This document shows positions 1-29,529 of a stretch of DNA of 41,342 nucleotides, one piece after another. The notes below the pieces were generated by a model that searched no databases, was not told the DNA's origin, and worked only from the letters and a program-made list of their open reading frames with translations. Origin of the DNA: a virus; the IMG/VR virus record IMGVR_UViG_3300026521_000235, positions 1 through 41,342 of that record; one strand, 5' to 3'. The position numbers and the translations under genes are program-made. The first letter of the stretch is position 1, and every line of letters starts with the position of its first letter.

Positions 1-125
1 TAGAGAAGATGAAAGAAATAGCTGAGAACCAACAGAAACTATTAAGACAAGGCGTTCCTTTAGAAGAAATACAAAGACTTAATCTTACTATAGATGTCGA
101 AGTTGAGGATGACGATGATGAATGA
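1..125 (+). CDS. 3' end of an upstream gene, acidic C-terminus
   Basis: The frame is open from the window edge and ends with TGA at 123-125, so only the last ~40 codons are visible. The end is strongly acidic (EVEDDDDE). It overlaps the start of the terminase large subunit, an arrangement typical of translationally coupled genes. By position it could be the small terminase subunit or the small protein beside terL in N4-like phages, but nothing in the visible residues proves this. The real start lies outside the window. Confidence 0.6.
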   Translation, partial: EKMKEIAENQQKLLRQGVPLEEIQRLNLTIDVEVEDDDDE

Positions 126-3100
126 TTTAGACTATAAACCAATTACAACTGACTATTCTAGTGAATTTAGGACTGAACTTGAATTTGATACATATAATGG
201 TATGCCTTTAACCTATGAGCAAATGCAACAAGCTATTGAAGCTAAATGGATACATCCTGCATTTAGAGATGGGATAATTACTGTAGATAAACTATTAGAT
301 CATGTAGATGTTGTTCTTGACTTTTATATTCCTAGCGTAGATGCAATTGATTTTATGAACTTCATTAGGTTGGTTCTTGGAGAAGAACCAGAGAATGCTA
401 ATCCTAAGGCACACTACTTTTTGATTGATTGTATCTTTAGAAGTGATAATGTTAGACCATATTTTCAAGTAAGAAATATAGATTTTGAATTTCTCAATAA
501 CAGGATAGTTGTACTCTGCACCCGTGAGTTTTCAAAAAGTACCCTTCTTGGTACTATGCTTGTTCTTTATATGGCTGCAAAAGGAGAGTTGCCTGGATTT
601 GGTAGAGTTAATTACGTGCTATATGTAGCAGATTCAATGAGAAACAATGTTAAGACTACTATGGAAACTATTGGCTCTGTGTATATGGAAAGTGAATATC
701 TAAGAGGTATATTCGAATCTGCTACTACAAACCAAGATGAAATATCATTTGTTAGAAAACCTGTAACAAAAAAAGAAATTGCATTATATGATGAGTATGT
801 AAACAAGCAGGGATTAAAGCCATCAGAAGTTCCAGGAAGGGCTAAGCGTACATTCTCCATGAAGGGGTTAGGCGCTAGCACCGGAGGGCGTGGTAGTAGG
901 GATGGACTATTTAGGCCTGACATGTGTCACAAAAAAGGAACAGTTGTATATACTGATATTGGTGAACATCTTGTTGAAGACTACTATAAGAAAGGTAATA
1001 GTAGATTTGAACAAGGTAAAGTAATAAAAGTTGCTGGATTACCAAATACAGAAATTGTCACAAATGAGCATAGATATTGGTGTAAAAATATCATGTTAAC
1101 AGAAAAAAAAGTTACTGAATTAAAAGAAGATTGGATAGAAGCTAAAGATATGATTTCTATGAGAACTTACATTGGTTCTGATATAGATATGACAATATGT
1201 GATCCACAAAAAATAAAGACAAGAACACCAGAGATAGCAAAAAGAGATAGTCTTGGACATATTATCTCTACAAAATATGTAGATACCTATGTCTTGCCTA
1301 ATGAATTTTTAGATGAAGATTTTTGGTGGATATATGGTCTATGGCTTGGGGATGGTCATGTATCTAAAAATAAATTTGGATTAACAATAGCATATTCAGA
1401 AGAACATACTATTGGTAAAAAAGTTCTTGAGTATATTAATAAAAATAATTTAAAATATTACAGATCAGAAGCAAAAGGGTGTTATCAAATAACTTTTAAT
1501 AATACAATTATCTCTGACTGGCTTAAAAAATATAAAAATGGGATCAGTGTTAAGAATATGCCAGATTGGGTACTAAATATTGACCCTAAATATCAAAAAC
1601 AAATACTAATAGGCTATATAGATGCAGATGGTTATATTGACAAAAGAGGAAAGCAAGTAAGAATAAATAGTGTTAATTATAATGTGCTGAAACAATTAGG
1701 TGTAATAGCTTTGAGACTTGGATTGCCTTATCACATACGAAACACAAAAAAAGCAACAACAAGTAAATTTCCTGGAGGAATATTTTGTAATACTAGACAT
1801 CAATGGGAAATCAGATTCAAAAAAGGTATAAATAATATACTTGGATATAATGCTATAGATGAGTCAAGTAGGAATAGAGTTGATGAAGTTCATATATCAA
1901 ATGGTAAGCTATGGAGAAAAGTAAAATCAGTATCTGATACAGAACAAAAAGAAGAGTTTATTCCTATACAAACACCCTCACATGTCTATTCTACAGACTT
2001 TGGTATAAGTCATAATTGTATTTTTGATGATATGGTATCTTCTGAGTCTGATGCTACTTCTGATGTGGTTCTTCAAAATATTGAATCAACAATCGAGTCT
2101 GATGTACTTAAAGCTCTTAGCGGTAATGGAAACTTTGCAATACTTATAGGTACTCCATATAATAAGAAGGATCCAGTATATAGAAGAGTTGAAAATAAAC
2201 AATGGTTGCCTATTGTATTCCCTAAAGCTGAAAGAATAAGTGAAGACTTAAAAGAAGAAGACTTTAGAGGTGTTTGGCCAGATAGGCATACATATAAACA
2301 ATGTATTAATGATTTCATAAAAGCCAAGATGTCACAGAATGCTGGTGATCCTGCTCCTATGCGTTCATTAATGCAAGAATATTATCTTAGAATTAGCAAT
2401 GACGAAGATAGGTTAATACCTGATACATTAATACAATGGTTCTCTAGGCAAGATATTATAGCTAAAGCATATTCATATAACTGGTATGTTACAACTGACT
2501 TTACCACAACAGGGAACAAGGGTTCTGATTTTTCTTGTATTATGTTGTGGGCTGTAGATAGCCATCAAAATCATTTCTTAATTGATATGACACTTAAAAA
2601 GTTGGAAGTTGAAGAACAGTATAACGAGACATTCGCAATTGCTATGCAAACAAGTGGTAGAACAAGATGGGTAGAAGTTGGTGTTGAGATAGATGGACAA
2701 CAAAGCTTACATATTCTTGGACTAAAAGATAGAATGCCAAAGAAAAACTTTTTCTTTTCATTTGCTAGACAGAAGGGTGCGAAGCCTGGTGCTCCTGAAG
2801 GAATTAGATCCAGACTTGAAGGTGGAAATAAACATTGGAGATTTAGAATGACGCTACCTTTATGGCAAAATAGAAAAATATGGTTCGCTAAAGAGTTAAA
2901 GAATACTCCTGATATGAAAGAGCTTCTTGATGAAATTAAATATACAACATATTCTGGATTTGGCACAAAACACGATGACGGTGTAGATGGCATCAGTCAA
3001 TTGACCTTAATCGACATCCAATATCCTGCTCCAAATTTATCTGAATTCTATGATTCTGGTTCTTACAAGAACAATAAAAATAGTCTAGGTTATAGAATGT

Positions 3101-3156
3101 GGAATGATTATAACGATGATGATGACGAGTCAGACATATATGATAGTTATATATAG
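118..3156 (+). CDS. terL: Terminase large subunit precursor, intein-containing
   Basis: ATP-driven motor and nuclease that packages DNA into the prohead. The precursor is ~1012 aa; removing the 364-aa intein leaves a ~648-aa terminase. A Walker A-like motif (REFSKST, residues 136-142) has Ser where the family usually has Gly. The Walker B segment (CIFDD) is rebuilt only after splicing. The C-terminal nuclease shows acidic residues in TTDFTTTGNKGSDF, GVEIDGQQ and KHDDGVDG. I chose ATG 118, which has GAGG at 105-108 and overlaps the upstream stop; in-frame ATGs at 94, 109 and 115 are alternatives. The C-terminus ends in an Asp/Tyr-rich tail. Terminase identity is clear; N4 gp68-type assignment is inferred from the neighbours. 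Confidence 0.93.
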   Translation: MNDLDYKPITTDYSSEFRTELEFDTYNGMPLTYEQMQQAIEAKWIHPAFRDGIITVDKLLDHVDVVLDFYIPSVDAIDFMNFIRLVLGEEPENANPKAHYFLIDCIFRSDNVRPYFQVRNIDFEFLNNRIVVLCTREFSKSTLLGTMLVLYMAAKGELPGFGRVNYVLYVADSMRNNVKTTMETIGSVYMESEYLRGIFESATTNQDEISFVRKPVTKKEIALYDEYVNKQGLKPSEVPGRAKRTFSMKGLGASTGGRGSRDGLFRPDMCHKKGTVVYTDIGEHLVEDYYKKGNSRFEQGKVIKVAGLPNTEIVTNEHRYWCKNIMLTEKKVTELKEDWIEAKDMISMRTYIGSDIDMTICDPQKIKTRTPEIAKRDSLGHIISTKYVDTYVLPNEFLDEDFWWIYGLWLGDGHVSKNKFGLTIAYSEEHTIGKKVLEYINKNNLKYYRSEAKGCYQITFNNTIISDWLKKYKNGISVKNMPDWVLNIDPKYQKQILIGYIDADGYIDKRGKQVRINSVNYNVLKQLGVIALRLGLPYHIRNTKKATTSKFPGGIFCNTRHQWEIRFKKGINNILGYNAIDESSRNRVDEVHISNGKLWRKVKSVSDTEQKEEFIPIQTPSHVYSTDFGISHNCIFDDMVSSESDATSDVVLQNIESTIESDVLKALSGNGNFAILIGTPYNKKDPVYRRVENKQWLPIVFPKAERISEDLKEEDFRGVWPDRHTYKQCINDFIKAKMSQNAGDPAPMRSLMQEYYLRISNDEDRLIPDTLIQWFSRQDIIAKAYSYNWYVTTDFTTTGNKGSDFSCIMLWAVDSHQNHFLIDMTLKKLEVEEQYNETFAIAMQTSGRTRWVEVGVEIDGQQSLHILGLKDRMPKKNFFFSFARQKGAKPGAPEGIRSRLEGGNKHWRFRMTLPLWQNRKIWFAKELKNTPDMKELLDEIKYTTYSGFGTKHDDGVDGISQLTLIDIQYPAPNLSEFYDSGSYKNNKNSLGYRMWNDYNDDDDESDIYDSYI
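925..2016 (+). other. Intein with LAGLIDADG endonuclease inside terL
   Basis: In-frame 364-codon insert that starts with Cys (TGT 925-927), ends with His-Asn (2011-2016) and is followed by Cys, so it has the residues of a class 1 self-splicing intein. Block B is seen as VTNEHRYW. Two LAGLIDADG motifs, IYGLWLGDGHV and LIGYIDADGYI (residues 405-415 and 497-507 of the precursor), indicate a dodecapeptide homing endonuclease with both acidic residues present. The C-terminal block reads VYSTDFGISHN. The insertion lies immediately before the Walker B aspartates of the ATPase, so unspliced terminase should be inactive. Endonuclease activity is inferred from motifs only. Confidence 0.93.
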
Positions 3157-3182
3157 ACAATAAAGAATTGAAATGATATAAT
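3154..3182 (+). promoter_or_regulatory. Sigma70-like promoter
   Basis: TAGACA (3154-3159), 17 nt, TATAAT (3177-3182). This is the best -35/-10 pair in the window and lies between terL and the 150-aa gene. Confidence 0.6.
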
Positions 3183-3224
3183 GTCATAATTTAAAACAAA
3201 AAAGGTTGTTTTAGTTATGACATT
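3180..3224 (+). promoter_or_regulatory. Hairpin leader presenting the Shine-Dalgarno in its loop
   Basis: Outer arms AATGTCATAA (3180-3189) and TTATGACATT (3215-3224) are perfectly complementary. Inner arms TAAAACAA (3192-3199) and TTGTTTTA (3206-3213) are also perfect. The six-base loop AAAAGG is the Shine-Dalgarno of the next gene, and its ATG (3217-3219) lies in the right outer arm. The structure is seen directly; a role in translation control or RNA stability is inferred. Confidence 0.65.
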
Positions 3225-3669
3225 GATTGAATTACGAAAATTATCAAGTGCATTACTTGTTGGTGACACTTCCCTTACTAGAGATAAAAATGAATTTCTT
3301 ATGCTGCTAAAGTATGCTTTTGCAAGAATAGCAGATGAAGCTGATGCAATAAAATTACTATCAGAAAAAGATTCAAATAAACAAATAGTAAGGAATGGTC
3401 CTGGTGGTTTATTTGTTAGAATGCCTGATATGCCAGAGAATGATGATGACGAACTTGATATAGATGAAGAGCTTACCTATGCTGTTGCTCGCTTTATTTG
3501 TAGTTTTGTTAGTCAAAAGAAAATAGCTCAACACGTAGCTGAAGCATCTGCTATTATAAAAAATTATAACCAAAAAGTATCTGCATATATAGAGACACTT
3601 GAGACTGAACAGCAATATCCAAAATCATTTGGAGAATCTCACATATATTATGGTACAAACGAGGATTAA
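3217..3669 (+). CDS. Small structural or packaging protein next to terL (unknown)
   Basis: 150-aa, mostly helical, acidic protein (DDDELDIDEE near residue 75). I do not recognise a named domain. It lies between terL and a 283-aa gene whose ATG follows its stop by three bases, so the two are probably co-translated. N4-like genomes carry small conserved proteins of about this size beside the terminase, so head completion or connector function is possible; this is positional inference only. The start at 3217 is fixed by AAAAGG in the loop of an 18-bp leader hairpin, with the ATG itself in the stem, and a TATAAT promoter lies directly upstream. Expression may therefore be separately controlled from terL. 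Confidence 0.75.
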   Translation: MTLIELRKLSSALLVGDTSLTRDKNEFLMLLKYAFARIADEADAIKLLSEKDSNKQIVRNGPGGLFVRMPDMPENDDDELDIDEELTYAVARFICSFVSQKKIAQHVAEASAIIKNYNQKVSAYIETLETEQQYPKSFGESHIYYGTNED

Positions 3670-3672
3670 TAT

Positions 3673-4524
3673 ATGATTGGTGATTTTGAGTATCTTCGTA
3701 GCAATTACGATAAAGTTCAAGGAGCAGTTGGTCCTATAAACAACAAAATGTTGTTAAAAGGTGTTCGTAAATTTTTAGGTAAGAATAGTAAAGTTTTTTA
3801 TGAGCATTCAATAGAAGAAACAAAACCTATATTTGCAGGATCAGCTCCACTTGAACCAGGATTTGATAGTGAACTTGTTTTGATAGAACCACTACCTGGT
3901 TCTGATGGTGTTGTTTTACTACCATATAATATTGATGATATTGAATCTCCATACCCATTAGATTATAGAAATGATTATTGTATGCCAAAGATAATGAACT
4001 CATTGAATAGATACAGAACTAAGAGATATTTTTCTGTTGATCTTGAATATGTGTTGTCTATATCTGCTGCATTTAGTAATCTTGATTTTACTGCATTTGA
4101 AGGTGAAGCTAAGCGTATATTGAAAGCCTGGATTCATGTTATGAGTTATGGTGTTTTAGCTAGTGATGATAAAACTATAATGCTCCAATCAAGTAAAAAT
4201 GAATATGGTAATGATGTTGGAACTAGAGTTCTTGTTCGTAATTCTTCTTACATTATTGGTTCTAATGATAATGATATTGGAGCACCTTATGCTCAATCAA
4301 CAGATCCAGAGTGGGCATTATCTGGTGATGATTATTCTAAAGTTCAGTGTTTAAATACTGTTTTTACGGCATTAGCAGAAGGCAATGACTTATTATATAG
4401 TAAACCTATTGTTAGTGGTATAGTAAAGGATATAAGCATAGATAGGTATGGCGATCCTCAATATTTACCTAACTTGTTAAATGTTAAGGATGCTAAATTG
4501 TATAAAAAAGAAAATATGGAGTAA
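3673..4524 (+). CDS. Putative head-tail or tail-tube protein (about 32 kDa)
   Basis: 283-aa protein with alternating strand-like segments and no signal peptide or membrane segment. No catalytic motif is visible. GAGGATTA precedes the ATG. It sits two genes after terL and just before the tail fibre. N4 has a ~30-kDa virion protein beside its terminase (gp67), and this is the likely positional counterpart, but I cannot confirm homology by reading alone. An alternative is an adaptor that joins portal and tail. Confidence 0.7.
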   Translation: MIGDFEYLRSNYDKVQGAVGPINNKMLLKGVRKFLGKNSKVFYEHSIEETKPIFAGSAPLEPGFDSELVLIEPLPGSDGVVLLPYNIDDIESPYPLDYRNDYCMPKIMNSLNRYRTKRYFSVDLEYVLSISAAFSNLDFTAFEGEAKRILKAWIHVMSYGVLASDDKTIMLQSSKNEYGNDVGTRVLVRNSSYIIGSNDNDIGAPYAQSTDPEWALSGDDYSKVQCLNTVFTALAEGNDLLYSKPIVSGIVKDISIDRYGDPQYLPNLLNVKDAKLYKKENME

Positions 4525-4530
4525 TATGAT

Positions 4531-7278
4531 ATGTATATAGATTTTATGGATATACTAAAGGATATAAAACATGGTATATATCCTCAAGTCTCTGAATGGA
4601 GAGATGAAGTAAAAGAAAATAAAGAGTTAGTAGAAGAGCTTAAAAATGATGTTTCTAGTATAGTTAGTGAAACTACTCGTATAGCTAAAGAGACAAATGC
4701 TTTCGAGTTAACTGCTAAAGATTTAGTTACAGCAGAATATAATGTTCCTGTAAAAGAGTTTTCTGTTGGTTCTGATGGTGAGATACATTCTGTCAATATG
4801 TATCCAGAAACTTTTTCTGGTAAGCATTGGGCTAAGAAGGCACAAGAAGAAGGTTACTTAGAACAACTAAAAGCAGAAGCTGCAAGACTTACTGCTGCAT
4901 CATTTGCAGTAGAACCATATGGACAGCCAGTTAAGGTATATGAATCGAATGGTGATGGTACTTTCACAACAAGAGAGCTTCAGTATGTATTTAGTGCATT
5001 GCATCACAGAGAAGATACAGAGATGTTAAGTGGACATAAGAGATGGGTTGAGACTCAATTTGCTACAGAAGAAAATGATACTGTATTTGGTTTCTCTAAA
5101 AACATAAATCATGCCGATGTGTATGTGAATGGTAATAGAAAAGTTGAAGGTATTGATTATACTAAAGTCTTAAAAGATATAACTTTCACAAATGCATTAA
5201 ATGTTGGTGACATTGTTACTGTATCTGGCATGGAGGCTTGTACAGGCTCTGAGTTTCATGATTTAAGAGATGAAACTAAAGCAATCGAATACCAAGCAAA
5301 GCAAGATGAATGGGAAGCTCAAGCATCCGAAATGACTGCAAAATCATATGCAGCAGAACCAGTTGATGTTCATGTGAAAGAATATACATCTAATGGTGAT
5401 GGTACTTTTACTGCGACTGAAACATTGTATTATTCAGCATTGCACTGGTCTATTAAGCTTAACATAGCAAACTCGAGTATAGTTATTGTTGATAAGTATG
5501 ATGATCTAGAATTACTTAATGTTAATTATGCAAAGGTTGCTTATGTAAGAGGTGGATATTCTCTTGATGATGGAAAACAAGGTTTATTTGATTTTGATCC
5601 ACAAGCATCAGATGTCAATAATCATGGAACAAACATAAACGGATGGAGAAGAAGATATTTTGGGTATGCAAAACTTTCATGGTTTGATGTCAAAGCAGAT
5701 GGGTCAAATGACGACTACAATGCCATAAAAGCAGCACTTGATGATTGCAAATACTTGGACTTTGAAGATAAAGAATATGCTATATCTCAAGAGCTTGTAT
5801 TTGATTGTCATTTTATCAAATCTAATAATACAAAAATAGTGTCGCTGCAAGATGAAGGTGTTGCTATTAAGTTTAAAAACTATAATAATCAAAATGTAAT
5901 AGATGGTAATCTTATTGTTGATTTTTATGGTAATCCAGATTATAGTAAAAATAGAACATGTGTATCTATAAGTGATTCTATTGGTTCTGCATTTAATGTT
6001 CAAAGTGCTGAATCTTCATATGGTATTGTAGTAGAACCAATAGAGAATGATGTTATTGCTAATACAATTAATATCAATAATGTAAGAGATTGTATTCAGT
6101 CTGTTGTACTAAAAAATAATACAAGCAATCTTGTCCTTAAAGCAAACAAAATAAATATTGATTTGGCTAAAAATTCACATCAAGTAGAGTCTTCTGATAT
6201 TGGTTCTAATGATTCATCATTATTGTTTGTTGATGGTAATAATATATTCGACAATGATATCTTGTGCTCAAATCTTATAGTTGAGAATAACAACAATAGA
6301 TCATGCGACTTATTTAAATTAAACAGTGACAATAACAAATTAAAAATACTTAGTGCATCTACTTCTGACTCTAGCCAATTTGTTGCTGAAATAAAAGGTG
6401 AAAATTGTATTTTAAATATAGAAAATGCTATAGGATTAAAAGCTTATTTATGGGATGAAAATGGTGTTCAGTCAAATATAGATATAACATCGTGTAATGA
6501 TATAATTGTTTATGGTAAACAATATGCTAAAAAAACTAATGGACTAGCAGTTGAATTATATTCTAATTCAAGTAAGCCAACACAAACAATACAAAATGAT
6601 AATGGGATTGCTACAGAATATCCAGTAAAACAAGATGGATATATTGCTACAAGAATATATGACAGAGGTGGTAACACTGAGAGTACACATTCTGATATTA
6701 ATAGCAAATATATTAAACATGGAGAAAAATCTTCTACCATATCATATGAAAAAATAATCCTAGAAAATGAATCAAATAGCAATAAAGTTATTATTGAAGA
6801 TACAAATATTAATGTTCTTGATGATTCAGGAAATGTCAAAATTAGTAAATCTCAAATAGATATTAGTGATAATGGTATACTGAAAATAAGAATAGATAAA
6901 GATGGTGATTGCATATTTAACGAAAGAAAAATTAACTGGACACAATTAGGTAAGCCTACCTCTGTTGATAACATAGGCACAATTAAATATGAATCAAATC
7001 CAGAACCTAATGGATACATAGGATATGTATATGTATCTAAAGGAAATACTACTGGTGATACAATATCTGGTTCTTCTGATATTACAAATATAGATAATGT
7101 ATCATTGTTTGCTGTAGACGATGAAGTTATAGGTGATGGAGTACCTTCTGGTTCTCAGGTAGTATCAATTGATACTGCAAATAATACAATTACAATATCA
7201 AACGATTGTACAAATGATGGATCTAGTGTTAGTCTTGATGCTAGAGGGTGGAAAGGCTTTGGGAAGATAGAAGCATAA
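4531..7278 (+). CDS. Tail fibre / tailspike with beta-helix
   Basis: 915-aa adhesin. After a charged coiled-coil-like start, three related ~35-residue units occur at about residues 72-107, 131-162 and 277-310, each with PVK or VKEY followed by a DG turn and a C-terminal SALH or SGKHW signature, as in modular fibre shafts. At ~383-392 WFDVKADGSNDD resembles the entry strand of pectate-lyase-type right-handed beta-helices, and the following ~330 residues are rich in Asn, Ile, Val and Asp. Residues ~850-915 match a common phage-fibre C-terminal module (VDDEVIGDGVPSGSQVVSI). Likely binds or degrades a surface polysaccharide; enzymatic activity is not shown. The stop codon lies in the loop of a terminator hairpin. 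Confidence 0.85.
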   Translation: MYIDFMDILKDIKHGIYPQVSEWRDEVKENKELVEELKNDVSSIVSETTRIAKETNAFELTAKDLVTAEYNVPVKEFSVGSDGEIHSVNMYPETFSGKHWAKKAQEEGYLEQLKAEAARLTAASFAVEPYGQPVKVYESNGDGTFTTRELQYVFSALHHREDTEMLSGHKRWVETQFATEENDTVFGFSKNINHADVYVNGNRKVEGIDYTKVLKDITFTNALNVGDIVTVSGMEACTGSEFHDLRDETKAIEYQAKQDEWEAQASEMTAKSYAAEPVDVHVKEYTSNGDGTFTATETLYYSALHWSIKLNIANSSIVIVDKYDDLELLNVNYAKVAYVRGGYSLDDGKQGLFDFDPQASDVNNHGTNINGWRRRYFGYAKLSWFDVKADGSNDDYNAIKAALDDCKYLDFEDKEYAISQELVFDCHFIKSNNTKIVSLQDEGVAIKFKNYNNQNVIDGNLIVDFYGNPDYSKNRTCVSISDSIGSAFNVQSAESSYGIVVEPIENDVIANTININNVRDCIQSVVLKNNTSNLVLKANKINIDLAKNSHQVESSDIGSNDSSLLFVDGNNIFDNDILCSNLIVENNNNRSCDLFKLNSDNNKLKILSASTSDSSQFVAEIKGENCILNIENAIGLKAYLWDENGVQSNIDITSCNDIIVYGKQYAKKTNGLAVELYSNSSKPTQTIQNDNGIATEYPVKQDGYIATRIYDRGGNTESTHSDINSKYIKHGEKSSTISYEKIILENESNSNKVIIEDTNINVLDDSGNVKISKSQIDISDNGILKIRIDKDGDCIFNERKINWTQLGKPTSVDNIGTIKYESNPEPNGYIGYVYVSKGNTTGDTISGSSDITNIDNVSLFAVDDEVIGDGVPSGSQVVSIDTANNTITISNDCTNDGSSVSLDARGWKGFGKIEA

Positions 7279-7292
7279 TCTTCTATCTTTTT
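7264..7292 (+). terminator. Rho-independent terminator after tail fibre
   Basis: Arms AAGATAGAAG (7264-7273) and CTTCTATCTT (7280-7289) form a perfect 10-bp stem with loop CATAAT, followed by a T run to 7292. The gene's TAA (7276-7278) is in the loop. Confidence 0.85.
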
Positions 7293-7295
7293 GTG

Positions 7296-7311
7296 TATAA
7301 TACTTTATAAT
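7296..7311 (+). promoter_or_regulatory. Possible promoter, two TATAAT boxes
   Basis: TATAAT at 7296-7301 and 7306-7311, a few bases after the terminator. No convincing -35 box. The transcript would start just before the 87-aa gene. Confidence 0.35.
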
Positions 7312-7332
7312 ATATTAAGAAAGGAAATATAT

Positions 7333-7596
7333 ATGGCACTTATCGAAATAAATGTTGATGGAGAATTAACTATTAGCATAGAAAAAGGAAATGAATACAA
7401 ATTTAACAATATGCGTATAATACAAAATAGAGGAGAAAATCCAATACTTGTATCTAGAAATGAAATAGGAAATTCAAGCAAAGGACTTGAGCTTGAAAAT
7501 AATGATATGATAATAGAAGATTCAAATGTTGATAGATATATAAAATTGACACAAGGCCAATCGCAACTGGTTCTTGTAGATAATGATGTATCATAG
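7333..7596 (+). CDS. Small beta-rich tail-associated protein (unknown)
   Basis: 87 aa beginning MALIEINVDGEL. I chose ATG 7333 over an in-frame ATG at 7291 because AAAGGA precedes it and the earlier start falls in the terminator region. The sequence looks like a small beta-sandwich with acidic loops and no membrane segment. It lies between two fibre or spike genes, so a fibre connector or small virion decoration protein is plausible, but I recognise no family. The SD lies in the loop of a potential ATATATT/AATATAT stem. Confidence 0.65.
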   Translation: MALIEINVDGELTISIEKGNEYKFNNMRIIQNRGENPILVSRNEIGNSSKGLELENNDMIIEDSNVDRYIKLTQGQSQLVLVDNDVS

Positions 7597-7619
7597 AAGA
7601 ATGTATAAAGGAATATTAA

Positions 7620-8609
7620 ATGGTATATAATTTTGGAGTATCTAAAGCTGTAGCTACTGTTAAATACTTGTATGATAGATATATAGGAAAAATAACAACA
7701 TATACAGTAGCAAGTCAAGAAGAAACTGATAAGTCCTCTTTTGATTTTGCTACTTTGGAAGAGGCACTTACATTTGCTGAAAATTGTAGTATAGTAGGAG
7801 GTGGAACTGTTAATCTTCATTTACAAGATGGTACGCATTACCTCGAAAGAGATAGTCATCAACCTAGTGTGGCTGGTAATGGTGTTGCTGCTTATAACTT
7901 TAATCACACGCATATCTTTTTAAGTTGTGATAGTAAAGGAAGTGCTACGATTACATTCTCTCCTAATGTGAAGATAAATGGTGGGAATGTATTTAGGATA
8001 GGTAATAGTAAGTTAGGTTTTACAAATGTTAAGGTTGACTATGCTTTGGGTGGAGCTGAACAAACCAAAAATGCTCTTTTTGTAAGAATGAATAATGCTT
8101 ATGTGTATATGACATCTGCTAGTGTCAAAGGGTTGAATAAAAGTGATTTTGTTGCCACGTTATCTATGGAAGGAAATAGTTACTTATACTCTACAAATAC
8201 AGAACTAGATAGTTTTGAATATGGTATTCTCCCTATAAGGGGGGTATCCTCTGGTGGTGTATATAACTTTACTTTTAAGAATATGGCACATCCTATCTTT
8301 GCTGGAGCTCCTGCTTTTGGGGTAATAAAATTAAGAGGAACTATTACAGAAGAAAATGTGGATAACCCAATAAAAAAGCATCAAATACATTCTGGGTATA
8401 AGGATAACTTTTATATAGATACAGATGAGCCTATAGCCCCAAAAGATAACAGAAGATTAATAAAAAATTCATCCGAGAGACCTGAAATGGACGGTGTACC
8501 TGATGGAACTTCTTATCTTCAACTAGATATAGGTAAGCCTATATGGTACAAAGGTAAGAACGACGATGGTAATGATATCTGGATAGACTCAAATGGAAAT
8601 GAAGTGTAA
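7620..8609 (+). CDS. Tail fibre / spike protein, beta-helix type
   Basis: 329 aa. The N-terminal ~35 residues may be an attachment region. FDFATLEEALTFAEN at ~42-56 resembles the start of a beta-helix domain in which a set of entries is laid out, followed by TVNLHLQDGTHYL and many short strands with Asn turns. The C-terminus (SYLQLDIGKPIWYKG, then WIDSNGNEV) is a signature seen at the end of many phage tail and appendage proteins. Cell-surface binding is likely. The next gene follows after nine bases with a full AAGGAGG ribosome site. Confidence 0.75.
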   Translation: MVYNFGVSKAVATVKYLYDRYIGKITTYTVASQEETDKSSFDFATLEEALTFAENCSIVGGGTVNLHLQDGTHYLERDSHQPSVAGNGVAAYNFNHTHIFLSCDSKGSATITFSPNVKINGGNVFRIGNSKLGFTNVKVDYALGGAEQTKNALFVRMNNAYVYMTSASVKGLNKSDFVATLSMEGNSYLYSTNTELDSFEYGILPIRGVSSGGVYNFTFKNMAHPIFAGAPAFGVIKLRGTITEENVDNPIKKHQIHSGYKDNFYIDTDEPIAPKDNRRLIKNSSERPEMDGVPDGTSYLQLDIGKPIWYKGKNDDGNDIWIDSNGNEV

Positions 8610-8618
8610 GGAGGCAAT

Positions 8619-9083
8619 ATGGAAGATTTTGAATTAGAAGAATTAGGACTTTTAGAAGAACAGGAAGAACCAAAAGTCTTAACGGAAGAGCAAATAAAAG
8701 AGAATAGAATAAATAGAATAAATTCTGTTCTTGATAAAATTGTTAAGCAATTAGAAAAAACAGGTGTTGATGTCCCTTATTTAAAAGGTACAGCTATAGA
8801 GGCACAAAAGAAGTTGTATGACTTTATGTATAGTTGTGCTTTGAAAGGCTACTATACTGATGAAGAAAATGACGCTATCATTCAAGCACACGAGAATGCT
8901 GAACAATTTCTAGCAATAACCACAAAGTTAGTTAATGATGTTAGGAGAGTTTTGTTTGAGAGATTAGATGAAAATTATGAAGAAATAGATAGTGATATTG
9001 AATATGTTAGCTCTTTTAAGATAACTAAAGAGAGCATAACAGATGAAGTGCTAGATGCTATTAGAGAAAGGTTTGGACTATGA
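8619..9083 (+). CDS. Hypothetical helical protein upstream of lysis genes
   Basis: 154 aa, acidic N-terminus (about 20 of the first 45 residues are Glu) followed by long charged helices. Strong SD AAGGAGG. Its stop overlaps the ATG of the next gene (ATGA), so the two are translationally coupled. No domain recognised. Position between the tail and lysis modules would suit a chaperone or a minor virion protein, which is inference. Confidence 0.7.
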   Translation: MEDFELEELGLLEEQEEPKVLTEEQIKENRINRINSVLDKIVKQLEKTGVDVPYLKGTAIEAQKKLYDFMYSCALKGYYTDEENDAIIQAHENAEQFLAITTKLVNDVRRVLFERLDENYEEIDSDIEYVSSFKITKESITDEVLDAIRERFGL

Positions 9084-9346
9084 TTTTTAATAAAATAAAT
9101 TGTAACAAGATACCGTTTAAAGATAAAGGATGTCATTTTTTAGCTGGTATGTTAACAAGTGCTATGTTATGCTTTAATGGACTATTAATTGCTAGTGCAT
9201 TTGCATCTTTTATTGTAGGTATCGCTAAAGAAGTATTTGATAAATACATTAGAAAAACTAAGTTCGACATTGAAGATGTGCTAGCAACAGGTTTTGGTGG
9301 TATCTTCTTTACAGTAAGTTATGTTATGTATAAGGGGTATTTATGA
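9080..9346 (+). CDS. Membrane protein resembling the YfiM-type family
   Basis: 88 aa with two hydrophobic segments (about 22-46 and 68-84). The pattern DKGCHFLAG, then GIAKEVFDKY and FDIEDVLATGFGG, follows the DK-x-x-H-x-x-x-G / KE-x-x-D / D-x-x-D arrangement of the small YfiM-like membrane or lipoprotein family often found in phage lysis regions. No lipobox is seen. Overlaps both neighbours by ATGA, so it is part of a tightly coupled lysis cassette. Exact role unknown. Confidence 0.65.
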   Translation: MIFNKINCNKIPFKDKGCHFLAGMLTSAMLCFNGLLIASAFASFIVGIAKEVFDKYIRKTKFDIEDVLATGFGGIFFTVSYVMYKGYL

Positions 9347-9708
9347 GAGCATTATTTTTGTTTTTATTGGCTTATTGTTTGGTTGTTGTGCTTACTCCTT
9401 TTGTACTTATATTTAATATTATTTATAAGTATATATATATGCAACCGATAAGAGAGTATTTAGAAACATCTGCTATAGGTTTTGATCAAGCTGGTGGAAG
9501 TGTAATGTATGGTAAAGAGAATTATACAATATCATCTTATACTCATTATTTGTGTAAGTATAAGGGGTCTAAGTGTTGGTTCGAGAGGTTTATAAATTTC
9601 TTTTTTGGCAAAAACCACTGTAAGAAATCTTTTGAATGGGAGTGTGTCAAAGATGATGAGGATTTACAAGAATTTTATGGAGTATATAGTGGAAAGATTG
9701 CAAAGTAA
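9343..9708 (+). CDS. Lysis-region membrane protein (unknown)
   Basis: 121 aa with one N-terminal transmembrane segment (about 3-30), then a soluble part with SAIGFDQAGGSVMYG and four Cys (C91, C98 and two more: HYLCKYKGSKCW, NHCKKSFEWEC). The DQ-x-GGS-x-x-YG motif with an HC-x-x-S ending recurs in small proteins beside holins and endolysins of several phages; the function is not known to me. It overlaps the holin gene by about 30 bases. Possibly a holin partner. Confidence 0.6.
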   Translation: MRALFLFLLAYCLVVVLTPFVLIFNIIYKYIYMQPIREYLETSAIGFDQAGGSVMYGKENYTISSYTHYLCKYKGSKCWFERFINFFFGKNHCKKSFEWECVKDDEDLQEFYGVYSGKIAK

Positions 9709-10135
9709 TGAATATGTATTTATTTTTACCATATTTTTATCTAATGTAGCAGGTGTGTTAACATATCTTAAAATACCTATAGAGCCTTTTAGTTTATTGG
9801 CTCTTTTAATAGTAATAGATTTTATAACAGGTGTCTGGAAGGCTCACAGTTTAGGATTACAGATAACTTCCCATAAAGCTAAATATGGGATTATAAGCAA
9901 ATTTAGTCTTTTGTTTATTCCTATAGTTATGGGTATAGGAGCTAAGGCTATTGGACAAGATGGTGGAGATTTTTTCACTTACGGACTTAACTTATTGATT
10001 GTTAGTGAAATGTATAGCACTATTAGCAATATCTATTGTCTAAGAACAAAGCAAGAGCTTCCAGAATGGGATGCTATCTCATTGATAGGGAAGAAAATTA
10101 GAAATATGTTTGGAGGAAAAGATGATATGGATTAA
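9677..10135 (+). CDS. Holin (phage holin 4-type)
   Basis: 152 aa with three to four hydrophobic segments (about 9-30, 35-52, 70-92, 100-125). The signature LIVIDFITGVWKA, then SHKAKYGIISK, fits the phage_holin_4 family (ID-x-x-TG-x-x-KA followed by K-x-G-x-x-x-K). It would form the inner-membrane lesion that starts lysis. I chose ATG 9677, which reduces the overlap with the gene before; ATGs at 9653 and 9656 are alternatives that would lengthen the cytosolic start. The i-spanin starts inside its last codons. Confidence 0.85.
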   Translation: MEYIVERLQSNEYVFIFTIFLSNVAGVLTYLKIPIEPFSLLALLIVIDFITGVWKAHSLGLQITSHKAKYGIISKFSLLFIPIVMGIGAKAIGQDGGDFFTYGLNLLIVSEMYSTISNIYCLRTKQELPEWDAISLIGKKIRNMFGGKDDMD

Positions 10136-10400
10136 TATATTGTCTTCAATCAAAGGATTAGTAAAACATCCTTTTGTTGTCGCAATTATCATTCTAGTAA
10201 TTGGATTCTTTGTTATGTTGGGTGTAATTAAACACAAAACAAAAGTCATAGAAGCAATTAAACAAGAAGCAGAATATGAGGTCATAAAAACAACAACCGA
10301 GTTAATACATAAACACGCAGATGTTAATATAAAGGACAACAATGAGATTAATATTACTGATAATAATAACTCTACTAACTTTGACATCTTGTTCGATTAA
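10122..10400 (+). CDS. i-spanin (Rz-like)
   Basis: 92 aa. The ATG at 10122 is set by GGAGG (10112-10116). Residues ~17-37 form one transmembrane segment (FVVAIIILVIGFFVMLGVI), followed by a short charged helix and an Asn/Asp-rich periplasmic end. Type II membrane topology and the overlap with a lipoprotein gene in another frame define an inner-membrane spanin subunit that would join the outer-membrane partner during the last step of lysis. Short for an Rz protein. Sequence similarity to known spanins is not visible; call rests on architecture. Confidence 0.75.
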   Translation: MIWINILSSIKGLVKHPFVVAIIILVIGFFVMLGVIKHKTKVIEAIKQEAEYEVIKTTTELIHKHADVNIKDNNEINITDNNNSTNFDILFD

Positions 10401-10635
10401 TAGTAGATATAAGCCAGAACCAGTTAGATATACTCCTCACAAATTAAGACAATGTGGTGGCTTTAAATATGAGAAGCGAGGTGATAATATAATACTTGAT
10501 TACAAAGTAGCTAAATGCTTGAAACATAATTTAATAGTTTGTTGTAAAGATAAGAAAAATTTGAATGTAGCAAATAGTGCTAATATTGAAATAATAGAAG
10601 CGTTAAACAGAGATAATATCTTGTCAAAATTTTAG
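10342..10635 (+). CDS. o-spanin lipoprotein (Rz1-like)
   Basis: 97 aa. Lipoprotein signal peptide of 16 residues with lipobox LTSC (Cys17 would be acylated). The gene starts inside the i-spanin gene in a different frame and extends 235 bases past it, the overlapped type of Rz/Rz1 pair. ATG 10342 has AAAGGA upstream. The mature part has four further Cys (QCGGF, KCLK, VCCK) and few Pro residues, unlike the Pro-rich Rz1 of lambda. Outer-membrane location implies a Gram-negative host. Confidence 0.8.
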   Translation: MRLILLIIITLLTLTSCSINSRYKPEPVRYTPHKLRQCGGFKYEKRGDNIILDYKVAKCLKHNLIVCCKDKKNLNVANSANIEIIEALNRDNILSKF

Positions 10636-10652
10636 GATAAAGGAGTATATAT

Positions 10653-11318
10653 ATGACTTATTATTTTCAAATAAAGAAAATATTACCTATGGCTAACGAT
10701 AGGTTTTTATATGATCTATTAAATTACATAGACACATATGGTAAAGATTTTAGGCTAGATACAAAGGATAGACTAGCAAAATTCTTGGCTCTTGCAAAGG
10801 CTGAGATGATGTTCAAGAATGGTAAGCCTATACTGACTGAAAATCTAAACTACAGACGCAAACAACTAAGAAGGTTTAGCAAAAAATTTAGAAACAATCC
10901 TAAACTACTTGATAAAGCTATGAGCTTAAAAGGCAATGAAAAACAAAAGTTTATTGCTATGGAGTGGTACGGTACAGGTAAAAAAGCGAGAGATTTAGGC
11001 AATAGATCTAAGCTTGATGGCTGGAAGTTTAGAGGCAGAGGTATCTTTCAAATAACAGGCAGATACAACTATGAAGTTATTGGATGCTATATTTTCGAGC
11101 ATACAGATGTAGCGTGGTATTTTGATGATGATGAAACTTTTAAAAGAATAACTAACTCTATGGAGTTTAACATTTTGAGTGCATTTGGATTTTGGGCGTA
11201 TCATAGAATGTACGATAAGAATATCAAACAGTGTATCAAAATCATAAATGGTGGATTACCATCTTCTGAAGTAGCAAAAAGAAAAAAATATTATAAAGAT
11301 ATTTTGACTATATTGTAA
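10653..11318 (+). CDS. Endolysin, GH19 (chitinase class I-like) muramidase
   Basis: 221 aa. GWKFRGRGIFQITGRYNY at ~126-143 is the substrate-cleft signature of GH19 lysozyme-type endolysins. The first catalytic Glu is in ALAKAEMMF (the usual His before it is Lys here) and the second in TENLNYRRKQL. C-terminal GFWAYHRM and KIINGGLP are also family-like. No signal peptide or signal-anchor is seen, so release through the holin is expected. SD AAGGAG. N4 itself uses a different endolysin fold at this position, so the gene is probably a modular replacement. Confidence 0.88.
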   Translation: MTYYFQIKKILPMANDRFLYDLLNYIDTYGKDFRLDTKDRLAKFLALAKAEMMFKNGKPILTENLNYRRKQLRRFSKKFRNNPKLLDKAMSLKGNEKQKFIAMEWYGTGKKARDLGNRSKLDGWKFRGRGIFQITGRYNYEVIGCYIFEHTDVAWYFDDDETFKRITNSMEFNILSAFGFWAYHRMYDKNIKQCIKIINGGLPSSEVAKRKKYYKDILTIL

Positions 11319-11320
11319 TA

Positions 11321-11349
11321 TTGTCTACTTATGTAAGCTATGGTATAAT
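11321..11349 (+). promoter_or_regulatory. Promoter for the portal-head operon
   Basis: TTGTCT (11321-11326), 17 nt, extended -10 TGGTATAAT (TATAAT 11344-11349), just after the endolysin stop. ATTCAT (11348-11353) is complementary to ATGAAT at the portal start. Confidence 0.6.
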
Positions 11350-11380
11350 TCATTTAATAAAATAAATATAAGGTGCATAT

Positions 11381-13771: not shown

Positions 13772-14027
13772 TAATGTATCAGGACTTGGTTCTGATATAG
13801 GCAAAACATTGAACATATCAGAATCTTTAGTTAATAAGTTTGATTCAATGCAAAAAAATGGTATAGACCCAAAATTAATAGCTAAAGAATATAATAAACT
13901 ACCCAATGAATTAAAAATAGCTATGGCAGCAATAAAGAAAAAAAATAGTGAAATAGACTCAAGAAAATCAGATATAACTCAATTTGCTAAAAGTATATTG
14001 CAACAAACTGGTGAACTTAAAGTTTGA
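13758..14027 (+). CDS. Small helical protein between portal and scaffold (unknown)
   Basis: 89 aa, all helical and Lys-rich. ATG 13758 overlaps the last 14 bases of the portal gene and has AAAGGAG, so it is translationally coupled. No domain recognised. Its TGA is in the loop of a terminator. It may be an assembly factor of the head, by position. Confidence 0.7.
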   Translation: MQEYNNVSGLGSDIGKTLNISESLVNKFDSMQKNGIDPKLIAKEYNKLPNELKIAMAAIKKKNSEIDSRKSDITQFAKSILQQTGELKV

Positions 14028-14041
14028 TTTAAGTTTTTTTT
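14014..14041 (+). terminator. Rho-independent terminator
   Basis: Arms AACTTAAA (14014-14021) and TTTAAGTT (14028-14035) are a perfect 8-bp stem with loop GTTTGA, then a T run to 14041. A -10 box follows only four bases later. Confidence 0.8.
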
Positions 14042-14051
14042 ATGGTATAAT
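14024..14051 (+). promoter_or_regulatory. Promoter for scaffold-capsid genes
   Basis: TTGATT (14024-14029), 16 nt that include a T8 tract, extended -10 TGGTATAAT (TATAAT 14046-14051). The -35 and spacer overlap the terminator, so ending and starting of transcription share the same bases. A small ATAGG/CCTAT hairpin lies at 14058-14077 in the leader. Confidence 0.6.
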
Positions 14052-14107
14052 TCCCTGTATAGGTTATATATGCCTATGTCGAATAAAAAACAAAAGGAAT
14101 ATAAGCA

Positions 14108-25562: not shown

Positions 25563-25608
25563 ATCCTATATACGATATAATACATAAAATATAAATTGTA
25601 TATAGGAT
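25563..25608 (+). promoter_or_regulatory. 11-bp hairpin with TATAAT in the loop, covering an SD
   Basis: Arms ATCCTATATAC (25563-25573) and GTATATAGGAT (25598-25608) are perfect; the 24-base loop holds GATATAAT (TATAAT 25576-25581). The right arm contains the AGGA Shine-Dalgarno of the 1304-aa gene (ATG 25615). If transcription starts upstream, the hairpin would hide the ribosome site; if it starts at the TATAAT, the left arm is missing and the site is open. This switch is inference. Confidence 0.55.
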
Positions 25609-25614
25609 TACTAC

Positions 25615-28600
25615 ATGAACGAAGATTATCAAATACCTCAATTATCAGATCAAGAACCAGTTGGTTATGTTGATGAATATGGTAATGAAGTAACAACTAA
25701 TAACGATGTTGCAAATTATTATCAACAGTATGCTGATGCTGTTTCTTATGATAATATGATTCAAGCAAATCAAGCTGAACTAGAATCTCAAAAAATATTA
25801 GAAAAACAAAAAAATTTAGCAAGAGCAGCTGAACTTAAGCGAAATGAAATATATCGTAAAGCTCCATTAAAGTATGAGCAAGATGGTTCTCTAATAAACG
25901 ATAGTGACGCTATGATAAGAGCTAAAACTTATGCTAATAAGGTAATACATGCTGCAGACTGGTTACTTGAAGCTACTGAAAATGTAGTTGATTTTGGTCA
26001 AGGAGATTGGATAGATCACGATACTGGATTTAAAGCAGAAGTTAATGGTCGTGAATACAATATGGGCAATAAAGATTTCATAGGTGCAAAAGGGCTAACA
26101 AGACAGGATTTAATTGATCAATTTTTAACTGCAGAAGATGATCCTAATGCTGAAGGTGGAGTATATTATCTTCGTAAATTTGATGGTTATAATCCTGATG
26201 GCTCCACTAAATATATCTATAAAGTTGGATATGCTCATGATGGAGCATACAATAGATATAAAGATCAATATATTCAAGATGGATATGAAATAATAGCTGA
26301 AAAGAAATTTGCTGGAGCTCTTGATTGGGAGAATAAATGGCATGCACTTCAGGAAAATTTAGATGATAGAGTTCTTACTGTAACTTCTGATGAGGTTCTA
26401 ACTCCGGATGGACTACTGCCAAGAGATAAAGCTTCAAAGATAAATTTTGGTTCCGGTAAAACTGAATTATATTATAATGATCCACTAGGACTAGATACTG
26501 GTTCTAAAGAAGATTATGCTAAGAATCTTGAGCGTTCTAAGCTTATATATCAACAGTACATGCAAAGACCTAAAGATAGTAATTTTATTGATGCTATACA
26601 GGCAGGAGCTCTTGGTTTAGCTACTGGTACTGCTGATGCTGTACTTGATTTGTTTACACCTGGTGATAACACTTTACTTAATAATTATAATCAAGAATGG
26701 GCTGATAAAGTTGCAGGATATGATAGGCATTACGGAGCTAGTAAAGTTAATGAAGCTGATGCTGCTTTTAGACGAGGAGATATTCTTACCGGATTATGGG
26801 ATGCAGTACAAGCAGCACCTTCATTTATAGGAGAAAGTTTACCGTATATGGCTGCAATGAGCATAGGTGCTGGTGAAGTAGCTGGAACAGCTAGAGCTTT
26901 AAAACTAGTTAATGCTGTAAGTGAAGCTAAAAAAGCTGGTTCTACTGCTGAAGAAATTGCTAACTTAATAGCTAAAACCAAAAAGACAATGAACCCAAAA
27001 GAGCTTAAAGTTTATGATACTTTTAAGGATAGTGAGAATACATTAAAAGCATTAAACTTAATAGCTAAAGGTGCTGGTATTGAAGCTGTAAACCTTGAAC
27101 TTACCAATCAAATAATCAATGAAAGAATGAAAGCAAAGAAAGCTGCTGGACAAGATCCAACTGTTAGTGCTGGAGAAGCTGTTGCTTTATATATGTCTCA
27201 GCTACCATTTACATTGCTTGATAAGGTAGCATTTGATGATATAGTTAATGTTAAAGGTATAAGTAAAGCCCTTAAATCTGCCATAAATAAGACATCAGAT
27301 GCAACAAAAAAAGAATTCACTACTAGGCTACTTGATAAGTCAAGATCTTTTTTGACAAGTGCTACGGAGGAAGGCCTTCAAGAATATGTTCAACAATGGG
27401 GACAATTAATTGGAGAGCAATATGGTATCGATAATAAAGATGTTATGGATATATTAAAAGATACTAAGAACCAGTTAGAAGCAAGACAAGCAGCTATAGC
27501 TGGAGCTGCTGCTGGTGTCGGAATGCATACTATCCCTGGTTCTAAAGCATTTGCAAATGCAGCAATTAATCATATAGCTCAAAAAAGAAAAATAAAAAAT
27601 CTTGAAACTATCGTTAATAATCTTGATGATGATCAATTTAATTTCTATATCAATAATGAACAAAATGATATAGATGCTTCAAAAGCTAATGCTGAATTAA
27701 TGAATGATACAAAAATAGTATTAAAAAGAGCCAAAACGATTGATGAAATGATTGAGTCATCTATTCCTGAAGTTAAATCTTTTGGTGAGCATTTAAGAGA
27801 TATTGCTATATATGAAGCTTTTAAAGATGATAAGTTTAATAATTATATTGCAGATAGCATAAGAAATAATATAAGTGCATCAATTTCTCCGGAAACAATA
27901 ATGTTGCTTGACCCAGAAATGACACAAAAAGCCATAAACAATGAAGAAGTAAAAGAGAAGATTACTGATGAAGAGTATAGGAAAAGATTAGCAAAAGCAT
28001 ATCTTGACGCACCTCTTGATTTGAAAATTAAAGTGATAAAACAAGATGCTGTAAGTAATAATGAAGAAACAAAGCTTATAGATAATAACAATAACCCATT
28101 TCATGAATATTTAAAAAATAACGATCTCTATAATAAATTTATTAAGCATACTGAAAAGAAAATATTTGAAGAATCAAAAGGAATTATTGATGAACAAATA
28201 GCCTCAATAGATGGTAAAGTAAAAGAATACAGAAATAAAATTAAAGAAAGAGAAGAAAGGTTACATAATCATAAGTTAGCTAGACAAGAAGCTATAGATA
28301 CTGGTTCTGGTATTAAATCTTTTAATGATAACGATATTGATGTTGAAGAGTTTAATAAAGATCCTAAAGGTTTTATTAATAAGATTATGTCTTTTAAAAC
28401 TAAAAGTAAAATTACTGATAATATAAAACATTATTCTGATGAAGCATTACAAAGAGCATATAATCATCCTAATTCTAGTTTAGCTGTAAAAAAAGCTATA
28501 GATAGCGTATTGAATACAAGAGAAAAAACTAGAACAAGATTAGCTAATATCGAAACAGAATTAGAACCAGATGAATATAAAATTAGACTTGTATCTAATG

Positions 28601-29529
28601 CGGTAAGACACTCTAATAGGATTTTAAATAATGTAAAAAATGAAATAAATAAAAAGAAAAAATATAAATATTACAATGAATTAGAGGATCATCTTATTGC
28701 TGCTAATTCAGCGTATACACTTGGTAGAATTGATGAAAGCGAGTATGAAAATATCTTATCTAATATTGCTGTTAAGCTTATGGATAGTCTTGTAAATAAT
28801 GAACAAAAAACAAAACTAAGTAAGTTGGTTGTTGAGCTTGGTGATATTTTTAAAGATAGTAATCTTCCTTTATATCGCAAAAACAAAGTTATGCAGTCAA
28901 TGTTAGCTAAATTTGGACAATCTTCTTTAAAAGAAGCTAAAGATAAAGATATCTTTGGTGAAAACATTTACCTTCTTGAAAGATTCAATCAGAAAGCATT
29001 TAATACTATAATGAATCACGCAAAGAAAACATCAATAAAAACAAAAGAAGAAAAAAAGCATATACTTAAAATGATAGATGTTGCTGAAAAAGTTGGTGAT
29101 ATTACAAATAAACAAGCTGATATTTTCAGGAAAAGAATTGAAGCTATAAGTAAAAATGCTAGAAATACTGTTGATAAAGAAGATAGAAAAAAATATAAAG
29201 TAAAAAAAACACTATTAACTTCAAAAGCTGCTAATAAACTTGTTGAAAAAAATCATTCTAAACAAATTCTAACAAAAGCATATATTAGTGATCTTGATTA
29301 TAAATACACTCAAGAAGATTTGACATCAGAAGAGAAAGCTAAAAGAGAAGAGCTTATTAATAAACTAGACGCACTTAAAAAACAAAACAAAGAAATAATA
29401 GATTTTAGTACATCAGAGCAATTATCTAATGAAAGATTTGATGAAATTTTTGATATAATTGGTGAAGTTGATGAAGAGTCAAAAGAAGAAGTTAAAAGTC
29501 TGTTTAATTTTTGTTTAAATAAATTGTAA
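25615..29529 (+). CDS. Split vRNAP, N-terminal part (1304 aa)
   Basis: Lies where N4 has the N-terminal ~1000-aa domain of gp50, which enters the cell first. Residues ~180-245 look like a GIY-YIG/T5orf172-like fold: GVYYL (182-186), IYKVGYA (201-207), Arg214 and Glu239 (DWENKWHAL). Residues ~325-660 include amphipathic, Ala/Gly-rich helices (FIGESLPYMAAMSIGAGEVAG) and ATEEGLQEYVQQWGQ, as in internal virion or polyvalent proteins. The last ~500 residues are Lys/Glu-rich helices. It ends with TAA (29527-29529), in the same frame as the next gene and separated from its GTG start by only three sense codons. Confidence 0.75.
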   Translation: MNEDYQIPQLSDQEPVGYVDEYGNEVTTNNDVANYYQQYADAVSYDNMIQANQAELESQKILEKQKNLARAAELKRNEIYRKAPLKYEQDGSLINDSDAMIRAKTYANKVIHAADWLLEATENVVDFGQGDWIDHDTGFKAEVNGREYNMGNKDFIGAKGLTRQDLIDQFLTAEDDPNAEGGVYYLRKFDGYNPDGSTKYIYKVGYAHDGAYNRYKDQYIQDGYEIIAEKKFAGALDWENKWHALQENLDDRVLTVTSDEVLTPDGLLPRDKASKINFGSGKTELYYNDPLGLDTGSKEDYAKNLERSKLIYQQYMQRPKDSNFIDAIQAGALGLATGTADAVLDLFTPGDNTLLNNYNQEWADKVAGYDRHYGASKVNEADAAFRRGDILTGLWDAVQAAPSFIGESLPYMAAMSIGAGEVAGTARALKLVNAVSEAKKAGSTAEEIANLIAKTKKTMNPKELKVYDTFKDSENTLKALNLIAKGAGIEAVNLELTNQIINERMKAKKAAGQDPTVSAGEAVALYMSQLPFTLLDKVAFDDIVNVKGISKALKSAINKTSDATKKEFTTRLLDKSRSFLTSATEEGLQEYVQQWGQLIGEQYGIDNKDVMDILKDTKNQLEARQAAIAGAAAGVGMHTIPGSKAFANAAINHIAQKRKIKNLETIVNNLDDDQFNFYINNEQNDIDASKANAELMNDTKIVLKRAKTIDEMIESSIPEVKSFGEHLRDIAIYEAFKDDKFNNYIADSIRNNISASISPETIMLLDPEMTQKAINNEEVKEKITDEEYRKRLAKAYLDAPLDLKIKVIKQDAVSNNEETKLIDNNNNPFHEYLKNNDLYNKFIKHTEKKIFEESKGIIDEQIASIDGKVKEYRNKIKEREERLHNHKLARQEAIDTGSGIKSFNDNDIDVEEFNKDPKGFINKIMSFKTKSKITDNIKHYSDEALQRAYNHPNSSLAVKKAIDSVLNTREKTRTRLANIETELEPDEYKIRLVSNAVRHSNRILNNVKNEINKKKKYKYYNELEDHLIAANSAYTLGRIDESEYENILSNIAVKLMDSLVNNEQKTKLSKLVVELGDIFKDSNLPLYRKNKVMQSMLAKFGQSSLKEAKDKDIFGENIYLLERFNQKAFNTIMNHAKKTSIKTKEEKKHILKMIDVAEKVGDITNKQADIFRKRIEAISKNARNTVDKEDRKKYKVKKTLLTSKAANKLVEKNHSKQILTKAYISDLDYKYTQEDLTSEEKAKREELINKLDALKKQNKEIIDFSTSEQLSNERFDEIFDIIGEVDEESKEEVKSLFNFCLNKL

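Follow-up and report, generated by a model that had tools for sequence, protein, structure and literature searches.

What can an 18-pair hairpin do when it lies between two phage genes, with one arm inside a promoter and the other over a start codon? The question is raised by a viral stretch of 41,342 nt (IMG/VR record IMGVR_UViG_3300026521_000235), the whole of which is here called the window. The window belongs to an N4-like phage, with a terminase (terL, phrog_38), a portal protein (phrog_1216) and a major head protein (phrog_1357), and the homologs of terL among phage records came from N4-like phages, with approximately 25–35% identity. A 2580-aa gene (29539–37281) matched the virion RNA polymerase (vRNAP) family phrog_2206 at the C-terminus of its product (residues 2249–2557). 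This match was confined to the C-terminal end and the Pfam search of the 2580-aa protein returned no family; its polymerase part may be very diverged.

The hairpin sits between terL and a 150-aa gene. The AUG at 3217 is supported as the start of the latter, since nine of ten homologs of the 150-aa protein align with it residue 1 to residue 1. The product is perhaps head-tail adaptor-like, to judge from the position of its gene only, and the region following terL in an isolate phage (L033) contains a gene annotated as head completion adaptor. The 150-aa product had no endonuclease match, and neither this protein nor the DNA of positions 2400–4600 was matched among phage records. A LAGLIDADG intein (PF14528, PF05204) is found inside terL at approximately 923–2020; the terL gene of one close relative, G001, is uninterrupted and lacks the intein.

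The two stacked perfect arms of 10 and 8 bp reported in the first-pass annotation of this locus were verified, both in their coordinates and pair by pair. Positions 3180–3189 form ten Watson–Crick pairs with 3215–3224, and positions 3192–3199 form eight with 3206–3213, the two arms being separated by one T.G pair and one bulged T. Also as described there, the left arm starts in the last three bases of the −10 hexamer TATAAT (3177–3182), the loop AAAAGG (3200–3205) holds the Shine-Dalgarno sequence AAGG, and the right arm, which includes the ATG, ends past the start codon (Table 1). The fold of 3180–3224 was predicted at −15.9 kcal/mol (z −7.0), a value that none of 200 shuffles equalled. An Rfam search of the window gave no match at the gathering score.

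Table 1. Positions of the leaders, promoter and genes discussed in the text; positions are those of the window unless a contig is named.
Feature	Position	Strand	Remark
terL, terminase large subunit (phrog_38) with LAGLIDADG intein	94..3156	+	Presumed source of the read-through mRNA
Sigma70-type promoter TAGACA-17-TGaTATAAT, extended −10	3154..3182	+	11/12 consensus positions plus TG
First leader, outer left arm	3180-3189	+	AATGTCATAA; overlaps the −10 end and the discriminator
First leader, inner hairpin	3192..3213	+	8 pairs, Shine-Dalgarno AAGG in loop; retained in the own transcript
First leader, outer right arm	3215-3224	+	TTATGACATT; contains the start codon (3217-3219)
150-aa gene, directly 3' of terL	3217..3669	+	phrog_9292
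Second leader hairpin, same geometry	25563..25608	+	Left arm 25563-25576, right arm 25595-25608
1304-aa gene behind the second hairpin	25615..29529	+	Upstream of the vRNAP-like gene
Free-standing GIY-YIG-type genes	L066:10116, L084:10619, L076:11207, L087:13887, L075:8652, L152:2001		Each with a promoter-embedded leader that hides the ribosome binding site (RBS)

The promoter that overlaps the left arm was one of two sites in positions 1–20000 matching 11 of the 12 consensus positions, and the only one of these with a TG element. As a class, sigma70-type matches were at chance level (124 found, 114 expected). After terL, a TGn element with a TATAAT-like hexamer was observed in seven of 12 relatives read, two of the seven leaders being identical. 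Transcription usually starts 6–7 nt after the −10 hexamer, which places the putative +1 at 3188/3189, at the junction of the two arms, with the outer left arm occupying −10 to −1. On sequence grounds, the transcript made from this promoter (hereafter, the own transcript) would be left without nearly all of the outer left arm, which is the 5' strand of the outer helix, so that any switch would act between read-through and own transcripts and not within one mRNA. A start past the outer left arm is thus what the promoter itself predicts for the own transcript, and it is compatible with a switch between transcripts. Among the three roles that had been suggested for the hairpin, a translation switch is the best supported, although not within a single mRNA as the promoter lies in the left arm.

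Folding predictions for the two mRNAs differed accordingly in the first leader. The stretch that a read-through mRNA would carry (3160–3228) folded at −17.2 kcal/mol (z −5.3), with none of 200 shuffles as good, whereas the own mRNA (3189–3228) reached −4.8 kcal/mol (z −0.8) and was equalled by 33 of 200 shuffles. In the read-through form only, the AUG is predicted to be wholly paired with bases that are untranscribed from the own promoter, so that this form has the start codon in the helix and the Shine-Dalgarno sequence in the loop. Because the latter is looped in both mRNAs, 11 nt from the AUG, the contrast between them rests on the AUG. The predicted openness of the Shine-Dalgarno sequence and AUG together rose from 0.40 in the read-through mRNA to 0.76 in the own mRNA.

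These predictions point to the following sequence of events. An mRNA of the terminase unit running into the 150-aa gene would fold into the 18-pair hairpin, which would pair the AUG and leave the Shine-Dalgarno sequence unpaired in the loop, and the 150-aa gene would be poorly translated from this mRNA. RNA polymerase at the TGATATAAT promoter would start past the outer left arm, and the resulting transcript, being unable to close the outer stem, would leave the AUG open. Expression of the 150-aa gene would then follow its own promoter and not that of its neighbour. We consider it most likely, with a probability of roughly 0.6, that the leader keeps the 150-aa gene silent when the mRNA has run through from terL and releases it when the mRNA starts at the gene's own promoter. 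What we infer from the arrangement is that read-through mRNA exists, that the two mRNAs are translated unequally and that the phage gains from this; the most natural purpose would be to keep neighbouring late units independent of each other in amount or timing. None of the four terminator-like matches in a scan of positions 1–20000 lay between terL and the hairpin, and a promoter-like site was found upstream of terL in G001 (L002:733).

A second hairpin of the same geometry precedes the 1304-aa gene, the product of which had neither a PHROG nor a Pfam match. Its left arm runs into a −10 hexamer TATAAT (25576–25581), and its right arm carries the Shine-Dalgarno sequence AGGA. Here, the read-through mRNA was predicted to fold at −14.4 kcal/mol (z −5.1) and the own mRNA at −0.8 kcal/mol (134 of 200 shuffles as good), and the predicted openness rose from 0.36 to 0.59. 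The two leaders are alike in geometry but have no evident common sequence and differ in the placement of the arm on the −10 hexamer.

How far the fold of the first leader is exceptional depends on the comparison. When composition was disregarded, 45-nt folds of −15.9 kcal/mol or lower were not rare in this genome (three observed against 1.6 expected from 12 genome shuffles), and perfect 10-pair stems showed no clear excess (five against 3.25). Among 45-nt windows with a GC content of 27% or less, in contrast, two folds of −15 kcal/mol or lower were observed against 0.08 expected, the other one being a terminator-like hairpin at 37283. A stronger argument than the rarity of the fold is its placement, that is, the pairing of a promoter with a translation start.

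Placement was evaluated in N4-like contigs over 220 units, each being a gene on the late strand that has a Shine-Dalgarno sequence at its start and is preceded, at most 90 nt upstream, by a TATAAT-type promoter. The score was the pairing of the translation start with the 25 nt before the inferred +1, which are untranscribed from that promoter, and the null was obtained by swapping promoters among units, so that promoter and start motifs were preserved. Set 1 comprised 85 units from the window and its relatives, after ten G001 units had been dropped as near-duplicates of those of the window; set 2 comprised the 135 units that were left of 171 after removal of 36 near-identical ones, and these came from 50 of 92 new loci. 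Four contigs that had already been used (L054, L061, L089, and L125) were left out. Set 1 gave an exploratory excess. A test on the −10 hexamer plus discriminator, with a threshold of −6 chosen after seeing set 1, was not replicated in set 2 (seven observed, 7.5 expected), and there was no excess at the moderate duplex energy of −8 in both sets together (34 against 33.8). An enrichment was found only in the extreme tail, for which the thresholds were read off a list: at a duplex energy of −12 or lower, set 1 gave four units against 1.26 expected (p 0.03), set 2 gave ten against 3.08 (p 0.0009), and the 220 units together gave 14 (6%) against 4.1. Watson–Crick runs of at least nine pairs occurred in five of the 220 units against 0.46 expected, and both window leaders were among the five.

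The excess was confined to the segment just before the inferred +1: positions −25 to −1 gave 12 units against 3.4 expected (191 units), while four windows further upstream and two transcribed windows gave no significant excess. The reverse-strand control had none of its 29 units, a small sample, against 0.95 expected. Removing one family of GIY-YIG-type genes left five units against 1.9 in set 2 (p 0.04), with the mean unshifted. Removing both this family and the window left eight against 2.95 by energy (p 0.007) and two against 0.39 by runs of at least nine (p 0.06). By energy, the second window leader ranked 8th of the 220 units and the first ranked 22nd (score −9.6), and 14% of swapped promoters paired with the start region of the first leader equally well or better, because untranscribed bases take part in only ten of the pairs of this leader. 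By length of the Watson–Crick run between promoter segment and translation start, the first leader was the 5th longest of 220. Stretches from eight isolate N4-like phages provided only three usable units, the best of which, in Vibrio phage 1.245.O (L033:16566, −9.9), is a lead only.

In relatives, the pairing was conserved in part. In G001, which shares 89% nucleotide identity over the block, the first leader is unchanged while the sequences flanking it on both sides carry substitutions; in the second leader of G001, the flanks have diverged and the stem is kept, a G.U pair of the window being replaced by G-C. A search of the viral collection for the exact first palindrome and arm patterns matched G001 only. 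Among the matches listed, the 150-aa family has 11 members including the window and G001, of which nine leaders, that of the window included, were folded; the leaders of G001 and of L068, which is cut by the contig end, were left unfolded. An ortholog with 51% amino acid identity (L056) has the same topology, with a 10-pair stem, the Shine-Dalgarno sequence in the loop and the start codon paired, but its leader is weak (−8.6) and seven of its pairs involve untranscribed bases. In another (L037rc), a shorter stem of 7–8 pairs covers the Shine-Dalgarno sequence. The hairpin was absent from the other six of the nine folded leaders (L004, L038, L049, L060, L063, and L071), and it is thus a local solution and not a trait of the family. 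Likewise, a relative of the 1304-aa gene with 44–47% identity (L023 and L035rc, one contig) has the promoter without the hairpin. In L004, a 9-bp hairpin (AGAACCACA...TGTGGTTCT, 1439–1471) was observed instead; it closely follows the inferred +1, precedes the Shine-Dalgarno sequence and is perhaps a 5' stabiliser.

Five of the 14 leaders at −12 or lower belong to a single family, the free-standing GIY-YIG-type (MUG113/T5orf172) genes. A further scan returned 35 loci, consisting of these five genes, a full-length homolog (L152) and 29 others. The L152 leader also has the stem, with −17.7 for the read-through mRNA and −2.5 for the own mRNA. Among the 29 others, 14 had no start call, and a recognised promoter was found in one of the remaining 15, without a stem. 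The Shine-Dalgarno sequence is at least mostly paired in all six full-length GIY-YIG-type leaders, and in five of them, for which the arms were picked by hand, eight or nine of nine discriminator/Shine-Dalgarno positions pair. Some pairs have changed on both sides between members, and five of the six genes lie in N4-like contigs. These results suggest that the endonuclease gene and its leader travel together. Another such leader precedes an HNH endonuclease gene (L042), and the remaining leaders at −12 or lower include those of a portal gene (L058), a phrog_2050 virion gene (L055) and two phrog_2109 genes (L043 and L053). A wider proposal, which we hold tentatively and with less confidence than the reading of the window leader, is that in a subset of N4-like late genes, including virion and mobile endonuclease genes, the extended −10 segment also serves as an anti-RBS strand. 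It would be a translational insulator that ties a gene to its own promoter in a one-directional late array and would have evolved repeatedly from sequences that are not related; homing endonucleases may carry it with them.

Four other explanations of the first hairpin have to be weighed against this evidence. It could be a palindrome that arose by chance in AT-rich DNA and was inherited by two closely related phages, as the ordinary number of 10-pair stems, the hairpin-free orthologous leaders, the failure of the preset test on set 2 and the modest energy rank of the first leader would allow; we regard this as unlikely, given that two of the five longest Watson–Crick promoter/start runs among 220 units are in the window, and given the excess of low-GC folds. 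Less likely again is the protein-binding operator suggested in the first-pass annotation, in which a dimeric repressor or activator would bind the palindrome overlapping the −10 hexamer. PMC2988022 describes an operator overlapping the late promoter of T4 I-TevI. However, the two palindromes of the window have no sequence evidently in common and are placed differently relative to the −10 hexamer, the exact first one was found in G001 alone, and G.U pairs, which are meaningless in DNA, are present in 12 of the 14 leaders tabulated; an operator is therefore not favoured.

An RNase III site, at which the long stem would be cut in the read-through mRNA to part terL mRNA from downstream mRNA, would fit a stem of approximately 18 pairs that is predicted to form in this mRNA only. 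We find it improbable, since it gives no reason for the contact of the right arm with a start codon or Shine-Dalgarno sequence, here and in other genes, and since this enzyme usually cuts stems of this length or longer. Least probable of the four is a stabiliser of the 5' end, with the inner hairpin guarding the own mRNA from decay. The protective role proposed earlier may hold weakly, in that 2 nt would separate the 5' end of the own mRNA from the inner stem and small hairpins lie near the inferred +1 of two other late leaders (14059–14077 and 17464–17483), but the inner stem is itself weak, as its folding energy and z-score indicate, and the outer arm would be left unexplained. A terminator was also considered and rejected for the first hairpin, which lacks a G+C-rich stem with a U run (GATTGA follows the right arm) and was absent from the four terminator-like matches of the scan.

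The silencing of read-through mRNA has well-described counterparts in phage T4. PMC3014915 reports that the Shine-Dalgarno sequence and/or AUG of genes e, soc, and 49 are sequestered in long mRNAs, and that late promoters of gene e lie within the DNA encoding the 5' strand, so that late mRNAs lack this strand. The gene e leader thus resembles that of the window in having the promoter in the hiding strand. With our duplex metric, gene e scored −11.9 from its far and −8.2 from its near late promoter, no stronger than the window leaders; a documented case therefore comes close to the −12 cut without passing it and has scores similar to the −9.6 of the first leader. According to PMC2988022, the leaders of I-TevI, I-TevII, I-TevIII, segB, and Aeh1 mobE have an RBS-hiding hairpin and a promoter from which late transcripts are made free of this hairpin. 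The same design is present in the six full-length GIY-YIG-type genes, whereas the 150-aa gene has no endonuclease similarity and the phage family is unrelated.

The promoters also differ. Late transcription in T4 uses the promoter TATAAATA, which is recognised with gp55, whereas the window has a sigma70-type extended −10 promoter with TAGACA at 17 nt; since the T4 late-promoter sequence is absent, the leader is not assigned to the T4 type by descent. In T4, it is early read-through that is silenced, whereas terL, upstream of the window leader, is itself on the late strand. According to PMC4496689, N4 late genes are transcribed by host sigma70 RNA polymerase with N4SSB, in the direction opposite to early and middle transcripts; because of this opposite direction, the T4 rationale for silencing is not directly applicable. 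The best reading is that the window leader works like the T4 e and I-TevI leaders without being one of them by promoter class or descent. Inverted repeats at promoters are also known from N4 itself, where, in PMC6027278, vRNAP promoters of the early region are described with a 5-nt hairpin stem and a 3-nt loop. The hairpin of the window, with 10 + 8 pairs, a 6-nt loop, a location on the late strand and a sigma70-type −10 hexamer, was not retained as a promoter of this kind.

Among the matches listed in open-access literature, judged by title and the beginning of the abstract, no description of such leaders in N4-like phages was found. The principle is already known from T4, and what is new, as far as these listings show, is its probable occurrence in N4-like phages. 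If the proposed mechanism is correct, T4-style hiding of the start, with the promoter in the hiding strand, would extend to an unrelated phage family and to host-type promoters, and the device would serve virion genes in a late array, where the blocking of early read-through is not directly applicable. Complementarity between promoter and start, compared with swapped promoters, offers a simple sequence test for such leaders in other phages.

Other stem-loops were observed in the window. A 13-bp perfect inverted repeat (17236–17274), the longest Watson–Crick stem found with loops of 3–30 nt, separates the major head protein gene from the gene that follows it, in a terminator-like position and without a clear U run. 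Strong stem-loops with T-rich right arms are present at gene ends at 7260–7293, which was not among the terminator-like matches of the scan of 1–20000, and at 37290–37322. The latter divides the late genes from genes on the opposite strand and is a candidate terminator between these two arms. Finally, a contig binned in a Caldisericia genome (L134) encodes an N4-like portal protein with 60% identity to that of the window and is probably a mis-binned phage fragment.
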